A stretch of DNA of 64,000 nt from Devosia sp. Root436 (GTDB taxonomy: Bacteria; Pseudomonadota; Alphaproteobacteria; Rhizobiales; Devosiaceae). The position numbers and the translations under genes are program-made. The notes beneath the pieces were generated by a model that saw only the letters and a program-made list of their open reading frames with translations, ran no database searches and was not told the DNA's origin. Every line of letters starts with the position of its first letter. The stretch's first letter is position 1. The DNA lies in assembly GCF_001426345.1 (NCBI RefSeq), contig NZ_LMEM01000002.1:1-64000 (forward strand), given 5' to 3'. Positions 10,545-64,000 of this stretch are shown piece by piece.

Positions 10545-10672
10545 CACCTCTCCCTTTGGGGGAGAGGTCGGCCGAAGGCCGGGTGAGAGGGCCTTTGCTA
10601 GGTGAGGTGCGTTGGGAAGGCCCCCTCACCCGACCCGAAGACGGGTCGACCTCTCCCCCGAAGGGAGAGGTG
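10545..10672. repeat. Palindromic intergenic repeat, family A
   Basis: This element of about 128 bases begins with CACCTCTCCCTTTGGGGGAG and ends with the complementary arm CTCCCCCGAAGGGAGAGGTG. Inside is a second stem (GGGTGAGAGGGCC ... GGCCCCCTCACCC). Each end is itself a hairpin, so the RNA would fold into a branched structure. Related copies lie at 16842, 18909, 20127, 20698, 29836, 58091, 59944 and 62516. This one lies between the FeuP-like and FeuQ-like genes and could attenuate or stabilise the transcript. Confidence 0.85.
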
Positions 10673-16841: not shown

Positions 16842-16967
16842 CACCTCTCCCTTTGGGGGAGAGGTCGACCCCCTTGGGTCGGGTGAGGGGGCCTTTTCTG
16901 GGTATGGAGCGAGGGGAAGGCCCCCTCACCCGCTGCTGCGCAGCGACCTCTCCCCCCAGGGAGAGGT
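16842..16967. repeat. Palindromic intergenic repeat, family A
   Basis: This is a family A element of about 126 bases between gp14 and gp15 (CACCTCTCCCTTTGGGGG ... CCCAGGGAGAGGT), with the inner GGGTGAGGGGGCC / GGCCCCCTCACCC stem. The 3' end of the gp14 gene (from about 16967 to its stop at 16926) reads into the element. Confidence 0.85.
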
Positions 16968-48997: not shown

Positions 48998-49473
48998 GAA
49001 TAGACCTCCCGCACCTTGGCTTCGAAGCCCCCCGCAATGTCGGCGATCAGCCCCTCGCGCGTGCCGAAGGCCAGGGCGTGGACATAGAGCAGGCTGCGAT
49101 CCTCGCTCACATCCACGCTCAGCGTGCCCGGCGTCAGCGTGATGAGATTGGCCAATAGCGTGATCTCGGCGTCGGATTTGACGGTCAGCGGAAAGGCGAT
49201 GATGGCCGGCTGCAGCGCCGATTTGAGATCCGGCGTCAGCACCACGATGGCCACACGCACGGCGCTGGCGCCAAGCTCGTAGAGAAACAGCACGGCCAGC
49301 GAAGCTATATTACGCAGCTGGCGGAAGCGGCGCGGCGGGCCGAGATTATGCCGCAGCAGCAGCACTGCCAGGATACCGATGGCGCCGCCGAGCAGCAGGT
49401 TGAGGCCGCTGAAGGTGCCGGTGATGGCGGCCCAGATCAGGGCCAGCACGACGACGGTCATTGCCGGGTTCAT
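48994..49473 (-). CDS. mrpE: Na+/H+ antiporter subunit MrpE
   Basis: This 159-residue protein starts [20 protein letters not shown], with a cytoplasmic tail containing [20 protein letters not shown] and LLYVHALAF, the MrpE core. The ATG at 49473 overlaps the mrpD stop. It supports assembly or stability of the complex. Confidence 0.93.
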
Positions 49474-51029
49474 GGCGCCCCTCCTGCCAGGCCGATGGCG
49501 GCGACATAGCGGGACGGATCGAGCAGGTCCGGGGCGCCGAAACGCAGTGCCTCGAACAGGCCATTGGGCCACAGCCCGGCCGCAACAACGATGGCCACCA
49601 GCGCGCCGGTGGCCCCCAGGCGCAGCCAGGCGCCGCGATGCGACGGCGCAGGCGCAGGCGCCACCACGCCTTCCGGTGCCGCCCGCCAGAAGATATGCGC
49701 CCAGAGCCGCGACCCGGCGATCAGCGTCAGCACCGCATTGACCACCAGCGCCACGGCCACAAGGCTGCCCACCCAGCTTCCTTCGCCCAGGCCCGCCTGC
49801 AGCAGCAGCAGCTTGGGCCAGAAACCGAGGAAGGGCGGCACGCCGGCCGTGGCCAGTACCAATACGAAAAACAGCACCGACAGCGGCGTGCTCGCCGCAT
49901 AGAGGCCGCCCATATGCCGGGAGTCGGTCTGCCCGGTCCGGCTCTCGATGAGGCCGGCGACCAGGTAGAGCGCGGTCATGGTCAGGATAGCGTGGAAGAT
50001 GTAGAGCCCCGCCCCGCTCACCCCGGCCAGCGACGGCACGGCGATACCCACCAGCACCGAACCGACGCCACCGATGACGAGGAAGCCGATGGCGCGGCGC
50101 AGATTGGTTTCGGCAATGGCCCCCAGCGGCGCGACCAGCAGCGTCGCCAATGCGACGGCCACCAGCACCGGCTCGAGCAGGTCGCGGCTAGCCGGCAACA
50201 GCACCACCAGCGCGCGCATCATGGCGTAGATGCCCACCTTGGTCAGCAATCCGGCAAACAGCGCCGAAACCACGGCCGGGGGCGTATGATAGGCGGCAGG
50301 CAGCCAGGCATTCACCGGAAAAGCGGCGGCTTTCATGCCGAAAGCCAGCAGCAGCAAGGCCGCCACGCCTGCCATCGCCGCCGGGTTCGCCGATGGCGCC
50401 ACCCGCATTATGTCGGCCATGTTGAGCGTGCCGAGCAGGCCGTAGAGCAGGCCGAGCGCCAGCAGGAAGAAGGTCGTGGCGAGGAAATTGAGGAACCCGT
50501 ATTTCACCGCGCCATCGAGCTGCGCCGGACGACCGCCCAGCACGATGAGCCCGAAGGACGCGATCAGCATCACCTCGAACCACACATAGAGATTGAACAG
50601 GTCCCCGGTGAGGAAGGAGCCGGTGACGCCGGCCAGCAACAGCAGCACCATGGAGTGGAAGCCGTCGCGCCCATCCTCGGCGCCGCGCTCGCCCTGGGCA
50701 TAGACCAGCACCGCCAGCGTCACCACCGCCGCCGTCAGCGCAAAGCCGGCCCCGAAGATGTCGGCGGCAAAGCTGATGCCGAAGGGCGGCAGCCACTTGC
50801 CCATGGTCATGCTCAACGGCCCGCTGTCGAGCACGCGCAGCAGCAAGGTCACCTCGCAGGCGATAACGGCACAGACGATCAGCACGGCGAAGATGAAGGT
50901 CAACCCGCCCGATTTGCGCAGCATCAGCGTGGCGGCAGCACCCATCAGGCACAGCACCAGCGGCAGTACCACCACCCAGTCGGATGCTGATGTCAGGGTC
51001 TCGATCATTGCTGGGGGCAATTCTACCAT
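49470..51029 (-). CDS. mrpD: Na+/H+ antiporter subunit MrpD
   Basis: This 519-residue antiporter-like subunit is homologous to NuoN/NuoM. It has many helices and the ion-path features (WFEVMLIASFGLIVLGGRPA with the key Glu, KVGIYAMMRALVVLLPA with the key Lys). The start is taken at the ATG at 51029, right after mrpC; a later ATG at 51008 is possible. Confidence 0.94.
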   Translation of the reverse strand: MVELPPAMIETLTSASDWVVVLPLVLCLMGAAATLMLRKSGGLTFIFAVLIVCAVIACEVTLLLRVLDSGPLSMTMGKWLPPFGISFAADIFGAGFALTAAVVTLAVLVYAQGERGAEDGRDGFHSMVLLLLAGVTGSFLTGDLFNLYVWFEVMLIASFGLIVLGGRPAQLDGAVKYGFLNFLATTFFLLALGLLYGLLGTLNMADIMRVAPSANPAAMAGVAALLLLAFGMKAAAFPVNAWLPAAYHTPPAVVSALFAGLLTKVGIYAMMRALVVLLPASRDLLEPVLVAVALATLLVAPLGAIAETNLRRAIGFLVIGGVGSVLVGIAVPSLAGVSGAGLYIFHAILTMTALYLVAGLIESRTGQTDSRHMGGLYAASTPLSVLFFVLVLATAGVPPFLGFWPKLLLLQAGLGEGSWVGSLVAVALVVNAVLTLIAGSRLWAHIFWRAAPEGVVAPAPAPSHRGAWLRLGATGALVAIVVAAGLWPNGLFEALRFGAPDLLDPSRYVAAIGLAGGAP

Positions 51030-51030
51030 G

Positions 51031-51408
51031 TCAGTAGCTCAGCGGCGGGTTGGGCTCGTTGACCGGTTCGGCCACGCGCATGGTGTCGGTATTGTCGGCA
51101 TCGAGGCTCTGATAGGCGCGGAAGGCCAGCACCAGGAGGAAGCTGAACATGGCAAAGCCGATGACGATGGCCGTGAGGATCAGCGCCTGCGGCAGCGGAT
51201 TGGCGATGGGCCCGTCCGGTTGTTCGAGCCCGGCCGGAACGATGGGCGCGATTTCCCGCGTCAGCCGCCCGGCAGTGAAAATCAGCAGGTTCACCCCATT
51301 GCCCAGGATGGTCATGCCGATCAGCATGCGGATGACCGAGCGCGACAGCAGCAGGTAGACGCCCAGCGCCACGAAACACCCGACAAGCCCGGCCAGCACA
51401 TAGTCCAT
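51031..51408 (-). CDS. mrpC: Na+/H+ antiporter subunit MrpC
   Basis: This 125-residue NuoK-like subunit (VGCFVALGVYLLLSRSVIRM, TILGNGVNLLIFTAGR, LPQALILTAIVIGFAMFSFL) has three helices. The ATG shares a base with the mrpB stop (TGATG), which fixes the start although the frame is open upstream. Confidence 0.94.
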   Translation of the reverse strand: MDYVLAGLVGCFVALGVYLLLSRSVIRMLIGMTILGNGVNLLIFTAGRLTREIAPIVPAGLEQPDGPIANPLPQALILTAIVIGFAMFSFLLVLAFRAYQSLDADNTDTMRVAEPVNEPNPPLSY

Positions 51409-51830
51409 CAGGGCTCCTCCTCGCCGCCTTCGAGCGCCAGCGCCACGGCCGAAATCGTGCCGAAAACCACGCAATATACCCCGATATCGAAGACCATCGG
51501 CGTCGACAGGGGAACGCTGGTCTGCCCCAGTTCGAGATAGAGCCAGATGCTGGTCATGAAGGGCGAGCCGGTGAACAGCGACAGCAGCCCCGAGAAGCCG
51601 GCGATGAACACGCCGAACCCGGCAATGGCCAGAGGATCGATGCGCAAGGCGCGCCGTGCCTCTGCGGCGCCGCTCGACATGCCCAGTATGGCCATGGCCG
51701 AGGCCGCGATCAGCCCGCCGATGAAGCCGCCGCCCGGTTCGTTGTGGCCACGCAGGCAGACATAGACCGAAAAGACGAGCATGACCGCGACGATCAGCGG
51801 CGCAATGGTGCGGAAGATCAATGAGTTCAT
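51408..51830 (-). CDS. mrpB: Na+/H+ antiporter subunit MrpB
   Basis: This 140-residue four-helix protein (VYVCLRGHNEPGGGFIGGLI is the family signature) is MrpB. It is encoded separately from MrpA, whereas in some rhizobia the two are fused. The ATG overlaps the mrpA stop (ATGA). Confidence 0.94.
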   Translation of the reverse strand: MNSLIFRTIAPLIVAVMLVFSVYVCLRGHNEPGGGFIGGLIAASAMAILGMSSGAAEARRALRIDPLAIAGFGVFIAGFSGLLSLFTGSPFMTSIWLYLELGQTSVPLSTPMVFDIGVYCVVFGTISAVALALEGGEEEP

Positions 51831-54211
51831 GGTGCCGCCTTCCGCCGGCGCCGTGGCGCGGGGGCCGCCGGCACCGCCGGCTTGGCCCGCCGCCGCAGCA
51901 GCGCCATGATGGCGATGCCGGCCGCCATGACCACCGAGATTTCACCCAGCGTATCAAAGCCGCGATAGTCGACCAGGATCACGTTGACGATATTGTGCCC
52001 ATGGGCAATCGGAACGCTGGTGGCGGTGAACAGGTCCGACAGCCGCGTATCGAGCGTCCCTGACAGCACCACCATCAGCAGCAGGCTGACCCCAACGCCG
52101 CAGACCAGCGCCAATGTGCCGTCGCGCGCCAGGTCTTCCAGCGGCCGCTGGTCGAGCTCGTCGAGCCGCAGCCGCGTCATTACCAGCGCCAGGATCACCA
52201 CCGAGAGCACTTCCACCATGAACTGGGTGAAGGCCAGGTCGGGCGCCCCGAACATCAGGAAGATCAGCGCCACGGCCGTCCCCTGGATGCCCAGTGCCAA
52301 AATGGCCACCAGCCGGTTGGTCGCCAGCAGCACGGCGCCCAGGCCGATCAGCGCCAGCGCGATCACGCCCCATTCATAGGGCTGCAATTGCGGCCAGCTC
52401 AGCTTGGCCGACCAGTTGCCCAAATCGGCATTGGGCAACAGCGCACCATAGCCGTTGAAGACCCCGAGTGGCACGATGAGTGCCAGCGCCAGCCCGACAA
52501 ATACCGTCGCCAGGTAGATTTCCAGCCGGCCGTGATGCAGCAGCCGGGTCACCGCACCGGAGAAGCGGATCAGGCCGAACATGACCGCATCGAACACAGT
52601 GTCCGCCGTCCAGCCGAGGCCGGCCCCGAAGCGCCGCAGCAGCGTGCGCATGGCCGCGGCCTGCCGGTAGACCAGATAGCCCAGCGCCCAGGTGGCGATC
52701 GACAGCCACAGCAGCGGGCTCGCCGGATTGATGGCCAGCGTCAGGTGACTGCTGACCGCCTCGCCAAGAATGGCCGCCGCCCCAGGCTCGACCAGGGTAT
52801 GGCCCAGCCAGTCGGTCATCACCGAGGCAACGATACTCGCGGCGCCCAGCACGACAGGCCCCGCCAGCATGGCGATGGGCGCCTCATGCGCCAGTTTCGG
52901 CGTCGGCAGCACGGGGCCGAGGAACGGCCTGACCAGGACCAGCATGGCCACGCCGGCCAGCATGGCATTGCCCGCCAGCAGCACCAGCAGCACGGCCATA
53001 TCGGACCACTGCCAGTGCATCAGGCCCAGATACATCTCTTCCTTGGCAAAATATCCCAGGGTCAGCGGCAGCCCGATCATGGCGAGGCTCGCCATGGCGG
53101 CGCCGATGAAGGTCACCGGCATCCGGTCGGCCAGCCCGCCCAGGATGGTGATGTCGCGCGTGCCCGCCTCGTGGTCGATGGCGCCGACCACCATGAACAG
53201 GCCCGCCTTGTAGAAGGCATGGGCCACGAAATAGAGCAGCATGGCCGCAATGGCCGCCTCGGTTCCCAACCCGATCAGCAGCACCGAAAGCCCCAGCGAG
53301 GCCAAGGTGGTCTGCGCCAGCATCTGCTTGAGATCGTTCTGCCGGAGCGCGCCGAGGCCGCCCCAGAGCAGGGTCGCGCCGCCGAAGCAGACCAGTATCC
53401 ATGTCCAGGCCTCGGTGCCGCCCAGCCAGGGCGTGGTGCGGGCCAGCAGGTACACCCCGCCCTGCACCATGGTTGCCGAATGCAGGAACGCCGAAACCGG
53501 CGTCGGCGCCTCCATGGCATTGGGCAGCCAGAAATGCAGCGGCACCTGCGCCGATTTGGTGAAGGCCGCCACGAGGAACAGGCCCAGCACCAGCCCGTAA
53601 AGTCCACTGCCGCGCACTTCACCGCCCAGCGCGCTCAGCTCCCAGCTCCCCGTGAGGTGATGGACGACAATGGCGCCGACCAGCAGGGCCATGCCGCCGA
53701 TATTGGTGATGACCAGCGCCTGGATGGCGCCCCGGCGCGCCGCCTGCCGCGTATGATCGAAGCCGATCAGCAGGAAGGACGTGACCGAGGTCAGCTCCCA
53801 GAACATGAACAGAGCCAGCATGTTGTCGGCCAGCACCAGCCCCAGCATCGCCCCCATGAAGGCCAGCAGGAAGCCGAGGAACCGCCCGAGATGCGGATGG
53901 GTTTTGAGATAAGCGCCGGAATAGAGCACGATCAGCGTGCCGATGCCCGAAATGGTCAGCGCGAAGGTCAGGCTCAGCCCGTCGACCAGGAAGGACAGTT
54001 CGAGCCCATAGGCCGGCACCCAGCCAATGCTGGCCGATACGGTGCCGCCAGCGACGACGGGCTCGATCAGCGTCAGCAGAAACAGGAATATTCCACCCGG
54101 CACCAGTGCCAGCACCCAGCCGGCATAGGGCCGGGCAAGGCGATGAATGAAGGGCGCCAGCAAAGCGGCAACAAATGGCGCAATCGCCACCAGCGCTATG
54201 CTCGCGTCCAT
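51827..54211 (-). CDS. mrpA: Na+/H+ antiporter subunit MrpA
   Basis: This 794-residue protein is the NuoL-like principal subunit. It has the proton-channel core (LFMFWELTSVTSFLLIGFDH, TKSAQVPLHFWLPNAMEAPT, SATMVQGGVYLLAR) and a C-terminal extension with a NuoJ/MrpB-like part (MFGAPDLAFTQFMVEVLSVV). It starts the complete mrpABCDEFG operon for Na+ (or K+) export and pH homeostasis. The ATG at 54211 follows GGGG by 7 bases; a TTG at 54229 is an alternative. Confidence 0.94.
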   Translation of the reverse strand: MDASIALVAIAPFVAALLAPFIHRLARPYAGWVLALVPGGIFLFLLTLIEPVVAGGTVSASIGWVPAYGLELSFLVDGLSLTFALTISGIGTLIVLYSGAYLKTHPHLGRFLGFLLAFMGAMLGLVLADNMLALFMFWELTSVTSFLLIGFDHTRQAARRGAIQALVITNIGGMALLVGAIVVHHLTGSWELSALGGEVRGSGLYGLVLGLFLVAAFTKSAQVPLHFWLPNAMEAPTPVSAFLHSATMVQGGVYLLARTTPWLGGTEAWTWILVCFGGATLLWGGLGALRQNDLKQMLAQTTLASLGLSVLLIGLGTEAAIAAMLLYFVAHAFYKAGLFMVVGAIDHEAGTRDITILGGLADRMPVTFIGAAMASLAMIGLPLTLGYFAKEEMYLGLMHWQWSDMAVLLVLLAGNAMLAGVAMLVLVRPFLGPVLPTPKLAHEAPIAMLAGPVVLGAASIVASVMTDWLGHTLVEPGAAAILGEAVSSHLTLAINPASPLLWLSIATWALGYLVYRQAAAMRTLLRRFGAGLGWTADTVFDAVMFGLIRFSGAVTRLLHHGRLEIYLATVFVGLALALIVPLGVFNGYGALLPNADLGNWSAKLSWPQLQPYEWGVIALALIGLGAVLLATNRLVAILALGIQGTAVALIFLMFGAPDLAFTQFMVEVLSVVILALVMTRLRLDELDQRPLEDLARDGTLALVCGVGVSLLLMVVLSGTLDTRLSDLFTATSVPIAHGHNIVNVILVDYRGFDTLGEISVVMAAGIAIMALLRRRAKPAVPAAPAPRRRRKAAP

Positions 54212-54367
54212 TCCGAACCCCACAGGCAATACTCCCCCGATCCGACTCTTGTGGCCGGTTCGCGCAAGACCTTAGCGAATGATCCCCCCGCGACAAGTCA
54301 AAACAGGGCTTTATCCCAGCTCTCCGGCTCCTCCTCCCCACTTATGGGGATGGAAGCCCTCTTCACC

Positions 54368-58090: not shown

Positions 58091-58212
58091 CCCTCTCCCC
58101 TGAGGGGAGAGGGAGGGTGAGGGGTTCAGTGCCGGTGAAGGGCACGGTGCCAACCGCAACATTGAACCCCTCACCCGACCCTTCGGGTCGACCTCTCCCC
58201 TCAGGGGAGAGG
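58091..58212. repeat. Palindromic intergenic repeat, family A
   Basis: This is a complete element: CCCTCTCCCCTGAGGGGAGA at one end, CCTCTCCCCTCAGGGGAGAG at the other, with the inner GTGAGGGGTTCA / TGAACCCCTCAC stem. It lies between the receiver gene and the urocanase-like gene, which converge. Confidence 0.88.
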
Positions 58213-58261: not shown

Positions 58262-59923
58262 CTACCCCACCGCGATATGCCCAATCCCCTTGGCCGCGAT
58301 CTCCTCGAAACTCTCGTCATACCCCGCATCGGCATAACGCATCACGCCCAGCGCGGTATCATTGGTCAGCGCATGCGCCAGCCGCTCATCGCCCTCAGGC
58401 GTGCCATCGGCCACCACAGTCACCCCCGCCGACGTCATGTAGCCCGCATAGCCACCGCCACCCGAATGCACCACCACCAGGTCGGCCATGGACGAACACA
58501 GCAACATGGCATCGAGGATCGGCCAGTCGGCAATGGCGTCCGAGCCATCCTTCATCCGCTCGGTCATGATATTGGGATGGGCCATGGCCCCGGCATCGAG
58601 ATGGTCGCGGCTGAAGGCCACCGGCCCGGCCAAAGTCCCATCGGCCACCATGGCATTGACCGCCCGCGCCAAGGCCGTCCGCTCGCCATGCCCCAGCCAG
58701 GCAATGCGTGCCGGCAAGCCCTCGAAGGGCACATGCTGCCGCGCCAGCCTGATCCAGTTGGTGACGATCCGGTTGTCCGGGAACATTTCCAGCAGCTTGT
58801 CGTCGATCTTGCTGATGTCCTCGGGGTCGCCCGATAGCGCCATCCAGCGGAACGGCCCGATAGCCCGCGCGAACAGCGGCCTGAGATAGGCCTCGGTGAA
58901 AATCTTGATATCGAAGGCGTTCTCCACCCCGCCCGCTTTGGCCTGGGTACGGATCAGGTTGCCGTTGTCGAACACTTCCGCGCCCGCCTGCTGAAACGCC
59001 AGCATGGCCCGCACATGGTCGGCAATGGAAGCCCGGCTTGCCGCCATCAACTGCCCCGGTCCCTCGACCCGCAGGCGCCTGACCTCGTCCAGGCTCATCC
59101 CCTTGGGCACGTAGCCATAGACCAGGTCATGCGCCGAGGTCTGGTCGGTCACGATATCGGGCACGATGCCGCGCCTGTTGATCTCGGGATAAATCTCGGC
59201 CGCATTGCCAACCAGCCCGATCGACGTCGCCCGCTTCTCCGCCACCGCCTTGTCGATCATCGCCAGAGCCATATCGAGGTTCGGTGCGATCTCCTCCAGA
59301 TAGCCGATCTCCTGCCGCTTCCTGGCCCGCTCCGCGTCGATATCGACGCACAGGATCGCCGCCCCCGCCATGCGCCCAGCTAGCGGCTGCGCCCCGCCCA
59401 TGCCGCCCAGCCCGGCGGTGAGAATGAACCTTCCGGCCAGCGAGCCGTCGAAGCGGTTCTCCGCGATGCGCATGAAAATCTCATAGGTTCCCTGGATCAC
59501 GCCCTGCGAGCCGATATACTGCCACGCCCCGGCCGTCAGCCCGCCCCAGCAGATCAGCCCCTTCTTCTCCAGTTCATAGAACACCTCGGCCTTGGCCCAT
59601 TGCCCCACGATGTTGCAATTGGCCATGATCACCAGCGGCGCCTTGGCATGCGTCTTGAGCAGCCCGATCGGCTTGCCCGACTGGATCACCAGCGTCTGGT
59701 CTTCATCCATGCGCAACAGTGCTGCAACGATCCCCTTATGCGCCGCCCAGTTCCGCGCCGCCTTGCCGAGTGCGGCATAGACCACCAGCTCATCCGGGTT
59801 CTCGCCCACAGCCAGCACATTCTCCAGCAGCCGCAGCAGGGCCTCCTGCCGCCACCCCTTGGCGCGCAGTTCCGGTCCGCCGGGGATCGGGAAATTGGGA
59901 TGGCGGGGATTGGGTGTGGGCAT
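58262..59923 (-). CDS. Urocanase homologue, probable thiourocanate-type hydratase
   Basis: This 553-residue protein aligns along its whole length with urocanate hydratase (HutU): GKAARNWAAHKGIVAALLRM, QSGKPIGLLKTHAKAPLVIM, GSQGVIQGTYE, GLGGMGGAQPLAGRMAGA and TDQTSAHDLVYGY. However, the HutU Cys in PARICWVGLG is Ala408 here (PARIAWLGHG), and the nearby SPNRETEAM reads HPNIMTERM. HHGGGVGMG reads HSGGGGYAG. It keeps the NAD+-binding framework. The operon contains hydantoin enzymes and no other hut genes, so it more likely hydrates a modified urocanate such as thiourocanate. Confidence 0.8.
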   Translation of the reverse strand: MPTPNPRHPNFPIPGGPELRAKGWRQEALLRLLENVLAVGENPDELVVYAALGKAARNWAAHKGIVAALLRMDEDQTLVIQSGKPIGLLKTHAKAPLVIMANCNIVGQWAKAEVFYELEKKGLICWGGLTAGAWQYIGSQGVIQGTYEIFMRIAENRFDGSLAGRFILTAGLGGMGGAQPLAGRMAGAAILCVDIDAERARKRQEIGYLEEIAPNLDMALAMIDKAVAEKRATSIGLVGNAAEIYPEINRRGIVPDIVTDQTSAHDLVYGYVPKGMSLDEVRRLRVEGPGQLMAASRASIADHVRAMLAFQQAGAEVFDNGNLIRTQAKAGGVENAFDIKIFTEAYLRPLFARAIGPFRWMALSGDPEDISKIDDKLLEMFPDNRIVTNWIRLARQHVPFEGLPARIAWLGHGERTALARAVNAMVADGTLAGPVAFSRDHLDAGAMAHPNIMTERMKDGSDAIADWPILDAMLLCSSMADLVVVHSGGGGYAGYMTSAGVTVVADGTPEGDERLAHALTNDTALGVMRYADAGYDESFEEIAAKGIGHIAVG

Positions 59924-59943
59924 GGTCTACCTCGTTCTTTCTT

Positions 59944-60073
59944 CACCTCTCCCTTTGGGGGAGAGGTCGGCGCGCAGCGCCGGGTGAGGGGGCCTTTTCT
60001 GGATTCGGTGCGAGGGGAAGGCCCCCTCACCCGCCTTGCTTCGCAAGTCGACCTCTCCCCCAAGGGAGAGGTG
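59944..60073. repeat. Palindromic intergenic repeat, family A
   Basis: CACCTCTCCCTTTGGGGGAG and CTCTCCCCCAAGGGAGAGGT form the outer arms, with the inner GGGTGAGGGGGCC / GGCCCCCTCACCC. It is nearly the same as the element at 16842. It separates the DUF917 and urocanase-like genes within one operon. Confidence 0.88.
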
Positions 60074-60081
60074 TTCCGTGG

Positions 60082-61176
60082 CTAAGCGCCCTCCAGCGCA
60101 TATTTCGCCAGCGCGATCCCCATCCGCTCTTCCACAAACGGATAAACCGCCGGGTCCAGCACGCTCGAACTCAGCGGAATAATCGTCTTGGGCACATGCA
60201 GCACGAACACATACATGCCGCGCCCCAATTGCCCCACCGACAGCGCCTGCCCCGCCGCATCCAGCGTCGTCAGCACATCGGGGAACGTCGCCAGCCGCGC
60301 GCCGCCGGCATCCTCCACCGCCATATATTCGTTCATCACGTGGAGCGTGGTCGCCTTGTCGCCCTCGCCGATGGTCACCGTGCCGATATCGAAGGCTTCC
60401 TTGGTATAGGTCACGTCGATGTCGGTAATGTACCCCTTGGTGAGGATGGTCCCGCCCGTGGTCTCCACGATGGCGTCGATCATCTTGTCTGGCCCCTTGC
60501 CTTCGGCTGCGATCATCGCCTCGCCCAGCTTCAACGCCAGCGAAATGCCGCCCAAAGCCGCATGCTGCTTCACATAGCTGGCCCGCAGCGGATTGCGGCA
60601 TGAGGCGATGAAGCCGCCCGACATATCCGCCGCCGTGCGCAAAATCGGCGACACCTTGGCCGTCGCCCCGCGCGTCACCAGCTCGATATAACGGTTCTCC
60701 TCCCGGTTGCCGCCCACCGCCGTCTGGATCATCTGCTCGGGCGAACCGGCCATGCCGATGCTGCCCATGTCCCCGGTCGGATGGGCGCGGATATCGCCCA
60801 CCGCATCCACCACCTTCAGCCCGAGCGCCGCCGAAGGCAGCCAGCCATTGAGCGTGGACGACTTGCCATTCTGCCCCACCATCAGCCCGCTCAGCTTCTC
60901 GCCCAGCGCGTCCTGCAGCAATTGCACGGCCTTGATATAGTCGACCCCGCGCATTTCCCAGGGCGTGGTCGAGGCCGGCGCGCCGATGGCGGCAGCCGTC
61001 GCCACCCAGTCGTCCTCGTCCAGTTCCTCGATGCTCACCAGTTCCGGCTGGCCGATGCGCACCGCCGCCGTGCCCAGCATGCGGCCATGGTCGGCCCAGC
61101 CGCCGCCGCCCGCCGCATAGACCGAGCCGCCGCGCACCGCCGCTTCCACGTCCTTTTCGGTCAGAATGCGCCCCAT
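60082..61176 (-). CDS. DUF917 / S-methyl thiohydantoin desulfurase-type protein
   Basis: This 364-residue protein belongs to the former DUF917 family (PF06032), recently associated, as I recall, with removal of sulfur from thiohydantoins. Visible family features are VRGGSVYAAGGGGWADHGRM, MRGVDYIKAVQLLQDALGEK and a C-terminal LSVGQLGRGMYVFVLHVPKT. Its ATG shares a base with the carbamoylase stop (TGATG). Between a hydratase and hydantoin-opening enzymes, a (thio)hydantoin desulfurising step fits well. Older annotation would be hypothetical protein. Confidence 0.75.
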   Translation of the reverse strand: MGRILTEKDVEAAVRGGSVYAAGGGGWADHGRMLGTAAVRIGQPELVSIEELDEDDWVATAAAIGAPASTTPWEMRGVDYIKAVQLLQDALGEKLSGLMVGQNGKSSTLNGWLPSAALGLKVVDAVGDIRAHPTGDMGSIGMAGSPEQMIQTAVGGNREENRYIELVTRGATAKVSPILRTAADMSGGFIASCRNPLRASYVKQHAALGGISLALKLGEAMIAAEGKGPDKMIDAIVETTGGTILTKGYITDIDVTYTKEAFDIGTVTIGEGDKATTLHVMNEYMAVEDAGGARLATFPDVLTTLDAAGQALSVGQLGRGMYVFVLHVPKTIIPLSSSVLDPAVYPFVEERMGIALAKYALEGA

Positions 61177-62429
61177 CAGTCCATCTCCTGCAATGTCACG
61201 TCCAGCGCCTTCACGGCGTCCAGCAGGACCGCCGCGCCCAGCGCGATATCTTCACTCGTGGCGAATTCGTCCGCCGAATGGCTGCGTCCATCCTTGCAGG
61301 GCACGAAGATCATCGCCGCCCTGGTGATCCGCGCCATCCACGCCGTGTCATGCCCCGCGCCAGAAGCCATGCGCCGGTGCCGCGCCCCCGCCGTTTCGCA
61401 GGCAGCATCGAGCACATCGAGCAGCCCGGCGTCGCACGGCGCCGGCTGGTTGTCCGAAACCAGGCGCGGCACCGAGACCTTAACGCCCGTCTTCTCGGCA
61501 ATCGCGGCGACACCCCTGCCGAGCTCATCGACAAACCGCTCCATGTCCTCGCGCAATTCGGCCCGCGCGTCGATCAGCATGCGCACTCGCGCCGGCACCA
61601 CATTGGCGGCATTGGGCGTCATCTCGAATTCGCCCACTGTGGCCGCGAAATGCGCCGCACCACTGGCCAAAGCCTTGCCCAGTTCCTCGACGCCCAGCGC
61701 GATCCACGCCGCCGTGGTCAGCGCATCCTGGCGCGACCCCATCGGCGTCGTCCCGGCATGGTCGGCCCGGCCCTCCACGATAATCTCGATCCGCGTGATC
61801 CCGGCAATCGCCGTCACCACGCCAACGTCCAGCTTCTCGTTCTGCAATACGGGCCCCTGCTCGATATGCAGTTCGAGGAACGCCTTGATATCGTCGCGCT
61901 GCGCCGGCAGGCGCGCATCGCCGCCGACCTGCAAAAGACCCTGCTCCAGCGTCAGCCCGTCACTTTCCCGCGCCAGCCACTCCGCCGGCCGCGTGCCGCT
62001 CATGCCGCGGCTGCCGATGCAGGACACGCCGAAGATCGACACTTCCTCGGCCAGGAAATCCACCACTTCCAGCGTATGCTCCAGTACCACCCCTTGGTCC
62101 CGCAAGGCCCGCGCCACTTCCAGCGCCACCACCACCCCGGCGATGCCATCGAACCGCCCGCCATCGGGCACCGTGTCCGAGTGGCTGCCCAGCATGATGG
62201 AACCCAGCTCCGGGCGCTTGCCCGGGATGGTGCCGATCAGGTTGCCCGCCGCATCCACCCGCGTCACCGCGCCAGCATCCCGCATGGCCTTTTCCAGCCA
62301 TTTGCGGCCCTCGATAAAGAGCGGGGTGAAGGCCCGCCGCGTATAGGGCCGGCCGGGCTCGGTGATGGCGGCCAAAGCGTCGATATCGGCGGCAATGCGG
62401 TCGGTGCTTATGGGGGAGTTTGGGATCAT
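61176..62429 (-). CDS. M20 N-carbamoyl-L-amino acid hydrolase
   Basis: This 417-residue zinc amidase of the HyuC/AmaB/allantoate-amidohydrolase group has metal ligands in LGSHSDTVPDGG (His83), RFDGIAGV (Asp94), DFLAEEVSIFG (Glu128/129), LELHIEQGPVL (His) and the final DGRSHSADEF. It would release an amino acid from its N-carbamoyl derivative, here plausibly N-carbamoyl-glutamate. It is coupled to the DUF917 gene. The 304-base gap upstream holds repeats only. Confidence 0.9.
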   Translation of the reverse strand: MIPNSPISTDRIAADIDALAAITEPGRPYTRRAFTPLFIEGRKWLEKAMRDAGAVTRVDAAGNLIGTIPGKRPELGSIMLGSHSDTVPDGGRFDGIAGVVVALEVARALRDQGVVLEHTLEVVDFLAEEVSIFGVSCIGSRGMSGTRPAEWLARESDGLTLEQGLLQVGGDARLPAQRDDIKAFLELHIEQGPVLQNEKLDVGVVTAIAGITRIEIIVEGRADHAGTTPMGSRQDALTTAAWIALGVEELGKALASGAAHFAATVGEFEMTPNAANVVPARVRMLIDARAELREDMERFVDELGRGVAAIAEKTGVKVSVPRLVSDNQPAPCDAGLLDVLDAACETAGARHRRMASGAGHDTAWMARITRAAMIFVPCKDGRSHSADEFATSEDIALGAAVLLDAVKALDVTLQEMD

Positions 62430-62515
62430 GACAAGATATCCCCGGACATCGTACCTCCCATACCCCCGACCTTGATCCAGCTATTCGGCCATCGGATAGG
62501 GAGTGGAGCAGCAGT

Positions 62516-62640
62516 CACCTCTCCCCTGAGGGGAGAGGTCGGCGCGAAGCGTCGGGTGAGGGGTTCAGCGCCGCGTCGGGCACCGTGCACTTCACCAGCA
62601 CTGAACCCCTCACCCCGCCCTCTCCCCTCAGGGGAGAGGG
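62516..62640. repeat. Palindromic intergenic repeat, family A
   Basis: CACCTCTCCCCTGAGGGGAG and CCTCTCCCCTCAGGGGAGAG are the outer arms, with the inner GTGAGGGGTTCAGCG / ACTGAACCCCTCAC. A separate hairpin half (CCCTTGTGGGGAGGGAATGA) follows near 62697. Together they fill the 304-base gap between the hydantoinase and carbamoylase genes. Confidence 0.88.
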
Positions 62641-62733
62641 AGCCCACGCTCAATGGGACTGATTGAGCCGGTGCCCCATTCCATAGACGATTGCCCTGCC
62701 CTTGTGGGGAGGGAATGAGGGTGGGGGTGCTTC

Positions 62734-64000
62734 TCAATTCCCCACCTCCGGCCGCACAAACCGCCCCACCCCCGGCTCCGCCACCGCCGTTCCATCAAAC
62801 ACCTGCCGCCCGCGCAGATAGGTCAGCCCCACCGTCCACGGCAGTTCGATCCCGTTATAGGGCGACCAACCCACCACATTGTGCCCGCTCGCCGCCGCGT
62901 CGTAGCGCATGGGCCGGGGGAACAGCACCGCGATATCGGCATCCTTCCCTGCCGTCAGCGCCCCCTTTCGCGCCAGCCGGAAGTGCCTGGCGGGGTTCTC
63001 CGCCATCAGCCTGGCCGCCCAGGTCAGCGGAATGCCCCGCTTCAGCGCCCCCATGACGAACAGCGGCACCATGACCTCCAGCCCCGGCACGCCCGACGCA
63101 TTGGCCAGCATGTCCGGATTGGTCTTGCGGTTTTCCGACCAGCTCACATGGTCGGTCGAGACCAGCGTGACATTGCCGGCCCGCACATGCTCCCAGAGCT
63201 TTTCCACCTCCACGCGCGGGCGGATCGGCGGATTGATCTTGGCCTTGCCGCCCAGCCGCGCCACGTCGTTTTCTTCATCCAGCGTGAGATAGTGAATGCA
63301 GGCCTCGATCGTCGCGGCATAGCCCTGGTCGCGGTAACTGCGCGCAATTTCATAGCCCCGCCCCAGCGAGCAATGCACCACATGCGCCGGACACCCGGTC
63401 TGCGCCCCCGTCTCGTAGATTTGCAGGCTCGCCAGCAATTCGGTCAGCGGCGGCCGGCTCATGCCATGCGCCCGCCAGTCGGTAATCCCTGCCGCCTTGA
63501 CCTTGGCCATGGCCGCGCGGACCATTTCGTCGTCCTCGTTATGCACGCCCGCCGTCAGCCCGGTTTTCGCCACCGCCGCAAAGCATTCCTCCAGCAAAGC
63601 CGGCGGAATACGCGGAAACCGCACCGGGTCCGTCCCGAAGGTGGAGAATTTGAACGCCGCGACACCCGCTTCGGCCTGCTCCGCAATCCGGCTCGCCCCC
63701 TCTTCCGGGTTGATCGTGCCATAGAGCGCAAAATCCACTCGCGCCTGCTTCTCGGCATGCGCCACCTTGATCCGCACCGCTTCGGCCGAACAGACCAGGT
63801 TCCCCTCGTCATAGGGCATGTCGACAATAGTGGTGACGCCGCCCGCCGCCGCCGAGCGCGTCGACCAGATGAAATCCTCCTGATCCTTCTGGCTCAGCGA
63901 ATGGGTCTGCGCATCGATGGCGCCGGGCAGGATCAGGGCATTGCCCAGCTCGTGCCGCTCATGCGCATGCGGGGCGACGCCCTCCCCCACATGGACGATC
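62734..64000 (-). CDS. Hydantoinase / dihydropyrimidinase-like amidohydrolase (5' end outside window)
   Basis: At least 422 residues of a cyclic amidohydrolase; the frame is open to the window edge, so the N-terminus is missing. Metal-site features: PGAIDAQTHSLSQ (usual HxH reads QxH), carbamylated-Lys candidate in GVAAFKFSTFG, His in TAGVHNEDDEM and AHVVHCSLGRGYEIA, and Asp in TLVSTDHVSWSENRK. It probably opens a hydantoin ring, giving the N-carbamoyl substrate of the next enzyme. QEDFIWSTRSAAAGGVTTIV is the family core. Confidence 0.88.
   Translation of the reverse strand, partial: IVHVGEGVAPHAHERHELGNALILPGAIDAQTHSLSQKDQEDFIWSTRSAAAGGVTTIVDMPYDEGNLVCSAEAVRIKVAHAEKQARVDFALYGTINPEEGASRIAEQAEAGVAAFKFSTFGTDPVRFPRIPPALLEECFAAVAKTGLTAGVHNEDDEMVRAAMAKVKAAGITDWRAHGMSRPPLTELLASLQIYETGAQTGCPAHVVHCSLGRGYEIARSYRDQGYAATIEACIHYLTLDEENDVARLGGKAKINPPIRPRVEVEKLWEHVRAGNVTLVSTDHVSWSENRKTNPDMLANASGVPGLEVMVPLFVMGALKRGIPLTWAARLMAENPARHFRLARKGALTAGKDADIAVLFPRPMRYDAAASGHNVVGWSPYNGIELPWTVGLTYLRGRQVFDGTAVAEPGVGRFVRPEVGN

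Follow-up and report, generated by a model that had tools for sequence, protein, structure and literature searches.

A probable complete gene cluster for ergothioneine breakdown to glutamate in Devosia sp. Root436

What compound is degraded by a run of hydantoinase, carbamoylase, DUF917 and urocanase-like genes, and which enzyme would begin its breakdown? This question is raised by the end of a 64,000-nucleotide stretch of DNA from the alphaproteobacterium Devosia sp. Root436. This stretch, called the window here, spans positions 1-64000 of contig C2 (NZ_LMEM01000002.1) in a genome of 3.9 Mb that is 99.97% complete. A first-pass annotation of the window had placed a hydantoinase, an M20 enzyme, a DUF917 protein and a urocanase homologue on the minus strand at 58262-64000, had read them as four of the five enzyme types of an ergothioneine-type pathway to glutamate, and had suggested that the lyase could lie beyond the window edge, where a transporter was also to be sought. 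We examined the contig stretch 55000-94999, in which genes were read up to 74999. All four genes are found at those positions, and both a lyase and a transporter lie upstream on the same strand. The cluster is very likely the complete ergothioneine-to-glutamate gene set of a known pathway, probably in one operon. The evidence for this reading consists of four enzymes that score over equivalog cut-offs, an ergothionase-like lyase, and the co-occurrence of lyase and hydratase among related genomes; the importer is its weakest element.

The four enzymes were assigned with NCBIfam equivalog models and their curated cut-offs. The putative thiourocanate hydratase of the urocanase family (58262-59923, minus strand, 553 residues), the candidate for step 2, scores 1045 bits against NF058530 (cut-off 930). 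Upstream of it and on the same strand are the predicted step 3 enzyme, a thiohydantoin desulfurase of the DUF917 or S-Me-THD-like type (60082-61176, 364 residues; 593 bits against NF058529, cut-off 440), the predicted step 5 enzyme, an N-carbamoyl-L-glutamate amidohydrolase or ErtE of the M20 family (61176-62429, 417 residues; 584 bits against NF058540, cut-off 520), and the predicted step 4 enzyme, the hydantoin-5-propionate amidohydrolase ErtD (62734-64089, 451 residues; 780 bits against NF058538, cut-off 600). The ErtD gene crosses the window end at 64000, and its full open reading frame (ORF) is L002:7735-9090, where 54999 is added to an L002 position to obtain the window coordinate. Since each of the four genes passes the cut-off of an equivalog model named for this pathway, chance resemblance is not an issue, and the count of four enzyme types out of five holds. 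The hydratase can also be told apart by residues. It contains HSGGGGYAGYMTSAG, at the place of which the ORFs of 11 control loci with a hutU-type urocanase have HHGGGVGMGFSQHSG-like stretches, and 59 alignment columns hold differing, nearly fixed residues in 92 hydratase ORFs and the 11 hutU ORFs; the 92 ORFs do not equal 92 genomes, as some genomes are in both L035-L056 and L068-L147 (e.g., Devosia soli). Its best solved match is 7ned (816 bits, with 631 for the next), which is labelled urocanate hydratase, shares the HSGGGGYAGYMTSAG stretch, and is presumably a thiourocanate hydratase.

The first enzyme would be a HAL-family lyase of 543 residues encoded at 68574-70205 on the minus strand, outside the window, which is a probable ergothionase. 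In ammonia lyases, an Ala-Ser-Gly triad forms the 4-methylideneimidazole-5-one (MIO) cofactor. The Devosia lyase reads SIGCA-DI where this triad would stand, and it has the ergothionase-type Lys. Its top solved match is PDB 6s7j/6s7q (E 1.5e-50, 175.6 bits), which we take to be the ergothionase of Treponema denticola, and the next match, labelled probable HAL, reaches 136.7 bits. In the alignment with this ergothionase, the triad is absent from both proteins and a Lys (IIKL / TIQKT) and a Glu (IEDE / IEDH), assumed here to be catalytic, stand at the same columns. The two enzymes are members of a common family, but they are distant in sequence, with SIGCADI in Devosia and SIGEGDI in T. denticola. 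PMC13405746 names T. denticola as an ergothionase species and describes ergothionase as free of MIO. The lyase is the only HAL-family gene found in a search of its own genome; it scores 201 bits against hutH (cut-off 539) and passes no NCBIfam model cut-off, in agreement with the earlier statement that hutH is absent.

The same residues recur in related loci. All 20 lyase ORFs in hydratase loci (19 full, 1 partial) are without the triad and read SIGCA-DI, and each of the 19 full ORFs has the ergothionase-type Lys, versus none of the 11 HAL-family ORFs of hutU loci. Ala-Ser-Gly was found in 10 of those 11 ORFs, none of which is from L061. The remaining ORF, L059:15053-16594, reads SIGY---L and has neither the triad nor the ergothionase-type Lys; a triad-bearing HAL lies nearby. 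In a wider tally of 85 lyase ORFs, the combination of a missing triad with the Lys and Glu holds for 84, the exception being L165. This tally is partly circular, as the search patterns that yielded its 80 named loci contained a portion of the triad-less motif. These 80 loci are therefore not independent evidence for the motif, but their neighbourhoods are.

Between the lyase and the hydantoinase, on the minus strand and outside the window, lie four genes of an ATP-binding cassette (ABC) importer: a permease (64284-65036), an ATPase (65033-65968), a second permease (66198-67388), and an OsmF-type binding protein (67581-68492). The Pfam matches for the parts outside the window are BPD_transp_1, ABC_tran, OpuAC, and Lyase_aromatic. 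Among the nine genes from hydratase to lyase, there are overlaps of 1 and 4 bp in two adjacent pairs, and the remaining gaps range from 81 to 304 bp. The single operon proposed by the first-pass annotation stands as a probable one, and its whole basis is the order, shared strand and spacing of the genes, from which co-transcription is suggested. No sigma-70-type promoter was found before the lyase in L002:15000-15600, which says little.

A plausible scheme can be drawn up from the enzyme families and the named pathway. The ABC importer, which is of the quaternary-amine class, would take up ergothioneine. The MIO-less lyase would then eliminate trimethylamine to give thiourocanate, which the urocanase homologue would hydrate to 2-thiohydantoin propionate. 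The DUF917 protein would swap sulfur for oxygen with the release of sulfide, the hydantoinase would open hydantoin-5-propionate to N-carbamoyl-glutamate, and the M20 enzyme would hydrolyse the latter to L-glutamate, CO2 and ammonia. Nitrogen would exit as trimethylamine, ammonia and glutamate, and sulfur as sulfide. A five-step bacterial catabolism of ergothioneine was reportedly described by Beliaeva, Leisinger and Seebeck in 2021. All five of its enzyme types are represented here, and four pass curated equivalog cut-offs; the Devosia cluster differs in having the four-gene OsmF-type importer between lyase and hydantoinase. The pathway itself is already described, and what is added here is the first enzyme and the importer for this genome, the agreement between lyase and hydratase occurrence across a genus sample, and one odd related locus (L165).

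The hydratase was searched for in 61 genomes, namely its own, 36 of the same genus and 24 of the same order, and the thiourocanate-hydratase cut-off was passed in 23 of them, of which 22 belong to Devosia. With a lyase profile, 61 genomes of the genus were searched, and 33 gave a match at E 1e-100 or better. For the 37 genomes in both searches (G000-G036), the hydratase and lyase sets are identical, with 22 genomes that have the pair and 15 that do not, a count in which shared ancestry is ignored. Neighbourhoods were mapped for the Root436 locus and 22 other hydratase loci. All nine genes occur within one stretch of about 20 kb in 16 of these 23, and in 16 the four genes of the importer separate the lyase from the hydantoinase. 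The other neighbourhoods include two that stop at contig edges (L046, L052), two from which the importer is absent (L035, L039), and one (L037) with no lyase or importer nearby, whose genome carries a lyase gene next to that of a binding protein on a different contig. In L042, there is no importer at the locus and the lyase lies on the opposite, downstream side of the hydratase; together with L170 of the same genome (G012), it appears as a rearranged variant with a lyase of only about 60% identity, and no binding-protein homologue was found in G012 at E 1e-60. ErtD and ErtE are both absent from the neighbourhood of L055, as they are from L090, L095 and L143. The idea that clusters lacking ErtD represent an unfinished pathway was rejected for that enzyme, since an over-cut-off ErtD is found elsewhere in the genome in six of six cases searched (apparently five distinct genomes, as G013 and G072 yielded the same results).

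A scan of named genomes for the lyase gave 221 confirmed stretches, of which 80 were kept for mapping: 29 from Devosia, 30 from Rhizobium, and 21 from other genera, among them Pelagibacterium, Salinarimonas, Shinella, Martelella and Neorhizobium. The hydratase lies in the fetched stretch at 64 of the 80 lyase loci, and 8 more reach the contig end first; all nine genes are present in 22 of the 80.

Several observations weigh against reading the cluster as a complete ergothioneine route. All five reactions are activities predicted from the enzyme families and the named pathway. The assignment of step 1 is based on residues and on how the solved relatives rank, no ergothionase model of NCBIfam having been reached, and the Glu is present in both lyase groups wherever the ORF reaches it and hence does not discriminate. 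For ErtE, the generic Zn-hydrolase model NF009531 gives a higher score than the ErtE model (635 bits with a cut-off of 486, versus 584), and the hydratase is also over the broad hutU cut-off (686 bits versus 375). In 38 of the 64 hydratase-bearing named loci, no binding-protein match lies in the stretch, and the Rhizobium loci with a hydratase are of this kind. At eight of the 80 lyase loci (L099, L101, L102, L105, L111, L129, L136, L146), no other cluster gene is in the stretch; an over-cut-off hydratase occurs elsewhere in six of these eight genomes and in none of the other two (L105, L129). These eight lone lyases and the two genomes without an over-cut-off hydratase indicate that the lyase is not always tied to the ergothioneine route. 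Finally, within the genus, the binding protein is present in 20 of 22 pathway-positive genomes and in 10 of 15 pathway-negative ones (Fisher p 0.095). As a side observation on the lone lyases, the gene follows ubiB and has a coaBC gene downstream in L129 and L136, the two loci that were scanned most, and a gene for a major facilitator superfamily transporter (L099, L129) or a LysR regulator (L136) lies near it.

The last of these counts bears on the best surviving alternative, in which the enzymes form the ergothioneine route and the ABC importer is a general one of the betaine class and just happens to be located in the cluster. We consider this a serious contender, somewhat short of an even chance. 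The binding protein is over the cut-off of the OsmF model NF049931 (495 bits versus 400), the solved structures that match it best carry the label proline/glycine betaine binding (469 bits), and three of the pathway-negative genomes (G007, G020, G026) have homologues at 90-92% identity. Because the binding protein also occurs in pathway-negative genomes, the importer need not be for ergothioneine, and its use as proof of the substrate was rejected. On the other side stands the recurrent placement of the four genes between lyase and hydantoinase, which extends from the mapped hydratase neighbourhoods to loci of Salinarimonas and Martelella (L114, L140). The ATPase stays under the cut-off of TIGR01186 (280 versus 327). 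EgtU is the ergothioneine importer of Firmicutes (PMC9732360); the Devosia binding protein belongs to the same superfamily of quaternary-amine binding proteins, but it is far closer to the OsmF class (up to E 4e-140) than to EgtUC (about 1e-28), which speaks against an EgtUC-like binding domain. The betaine/choline-class transporter found upstream of 64000 may be regarded as a quaternary-amine importer for which ergothioneine is the suggested substrate.

The remaining alternatives concern the enzymes themselves. It is highly improbable that the cluster serves S-methyl-ergothioneine or ergothioneine sulfonate and not ergothioneine itself. NCBIfam does offer S-methyl models for hydratase and desulfurase, and PMC13405746 cites a pathway for the sulfonate in Agrobacterium radiobacter; however, the hydratase and the desulfurase are both under their S-methyl cut-offs (740 of 880 bits for the S-methyl-thiourocanate hydratase model, 288 of 450 for NF058532), whereas the thio models are passed, and the S-methyl route was rejected. 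Still less probable is a divergent Hut route, in which the lyase would be a histidine ammonia-lyase, the urocanase would act on urocanate, and hydantoinase and carbamoylase would replace HutI and HutG. Such a route could draw on the hutU score mentioned above and on the genome search, in which the hydratase was the sole urocanase found, but a lyase without the triad needed for MIO and with a hutH score well under the cut-off, together with a desulfurase that has no place in Hut, led us to reject it. In addition, two genomes of the genus (G028, G032) and one of the order (G058) have, within one fetched stretch, a urocanase of the hutU type together with a triad-bearing HAL ORF, and elsewhere a thiourocanate hydratase and a triad-less lyase. 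The cluster shares with hut a homologous lyase and hydratase and glutamate as the common end product, but it lacks the MIO triad, has an extra desulfurase, and would use hydantoin ring opening in place of HutI and HutG; hutI and hutG, noted as missing by the first-pass annotation, do not appear among the identified genes of the cluster and its flanks, although no search for them was made in the remainder of the genome. Synthesis of ergothioneine instead of its breakdown was dismissed, as no EgtD-family methyltransferase was found in the genome.

With breakdown of ergothioneine as the preferred reading, the pathway can be viewed as a testable trait of a soil genus, with the lyase-hydratase pair in 22 of 37 sampled genomes. 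Across the class, the trait is still rare. In an even draw of 385 genomes, including that of Root436, an over-cut-off hydratase was found in 5 and the lyase (E 1e-150 or better) in 3. A triad-less lyase lies near the hydratase in three loci of this draw (L166, L167, L168), that of L166 being too distant for the E 1e-150 threshold and cut by the stretch end, and a triad-bearing one in the fourth locus besides that of Root436 (L165). PMC13405746 (2026) describes ergothionase as limited to a few genera and cautions that homologues which are divergent or poorly annotated may escape notice. Part of the trait may have been overlooked, perhaps because lyases of this kind look like histidine ammonia-lyases. 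In a search of an open-licence collection of papers, from which most subscription papers are missing, neither a paper joining Devosia and ergothioneine nor the phrase 'thiourocanate hydratase' was found.

A different arrangement is seen in another alphaproteobacterium, a single genome with no other member of its family in the genome set. At L165:6814-13000, a triad-bearing HAL-family lyase is followed by a desulfurase (599 bits, cut-off 440) and a hydratase (963, cut-off 930), and then by a gene that resembles type III sulfide:quinone reductase and scores 178, below the cut-off of 525. The lyase narrowly passes a histidine ammonia-lyase subfamily cut-off (526 versus 524) but falls below that of hutH (491 versus 539), and no ErtD or ErtE match was found within 20 kb. 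Judged from sequence, this locus could be a 2-thiohistidine route, with plain histidine as the alternative. We tentatively propose, as an idea with perhaps a modest chance of holding, that hydratase and desulfurase form a movable thio-imidazole-breaking core behind differing lyases and importers. In Devosia, this core would be joined to a trimethylamine lyase and an OsmF-type importer, which would then be a second class of ergothioneine importer beside EgtU, and in L165 to a triad-bearing ammonia lyase of a 2-thiohistidine route.

The surroundings of the Devosia cluster give no sign of another route. Beyond the lyase, the next upstream genes are a RhaM-type mutarotase (judged by eye) and then sugar-type ABC genes, including one permease identified by Pfam, which together look like a separate sugar system. 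A scan of the contig part past 74999 (L003), made for transfer RNA genes only, found none. An intergenic repeat of about 120 bp with the ends CTCTCCC...GGGAGAG recurs across the window and for 11 kb beyond it. Three copies sit between cluster genes (59947-60070, 62519-62638 and, outside the window, 66026-66145) and one directly after the cluster (58093-58211); others are at 10548-10669 and 16845-16965, in addition to single-ended copies. Elsewhere in the window, the genes at 49470-54229 on the minus strand resemble, by eye, subunits of an Mrp/Mnh-type cation antiporter.

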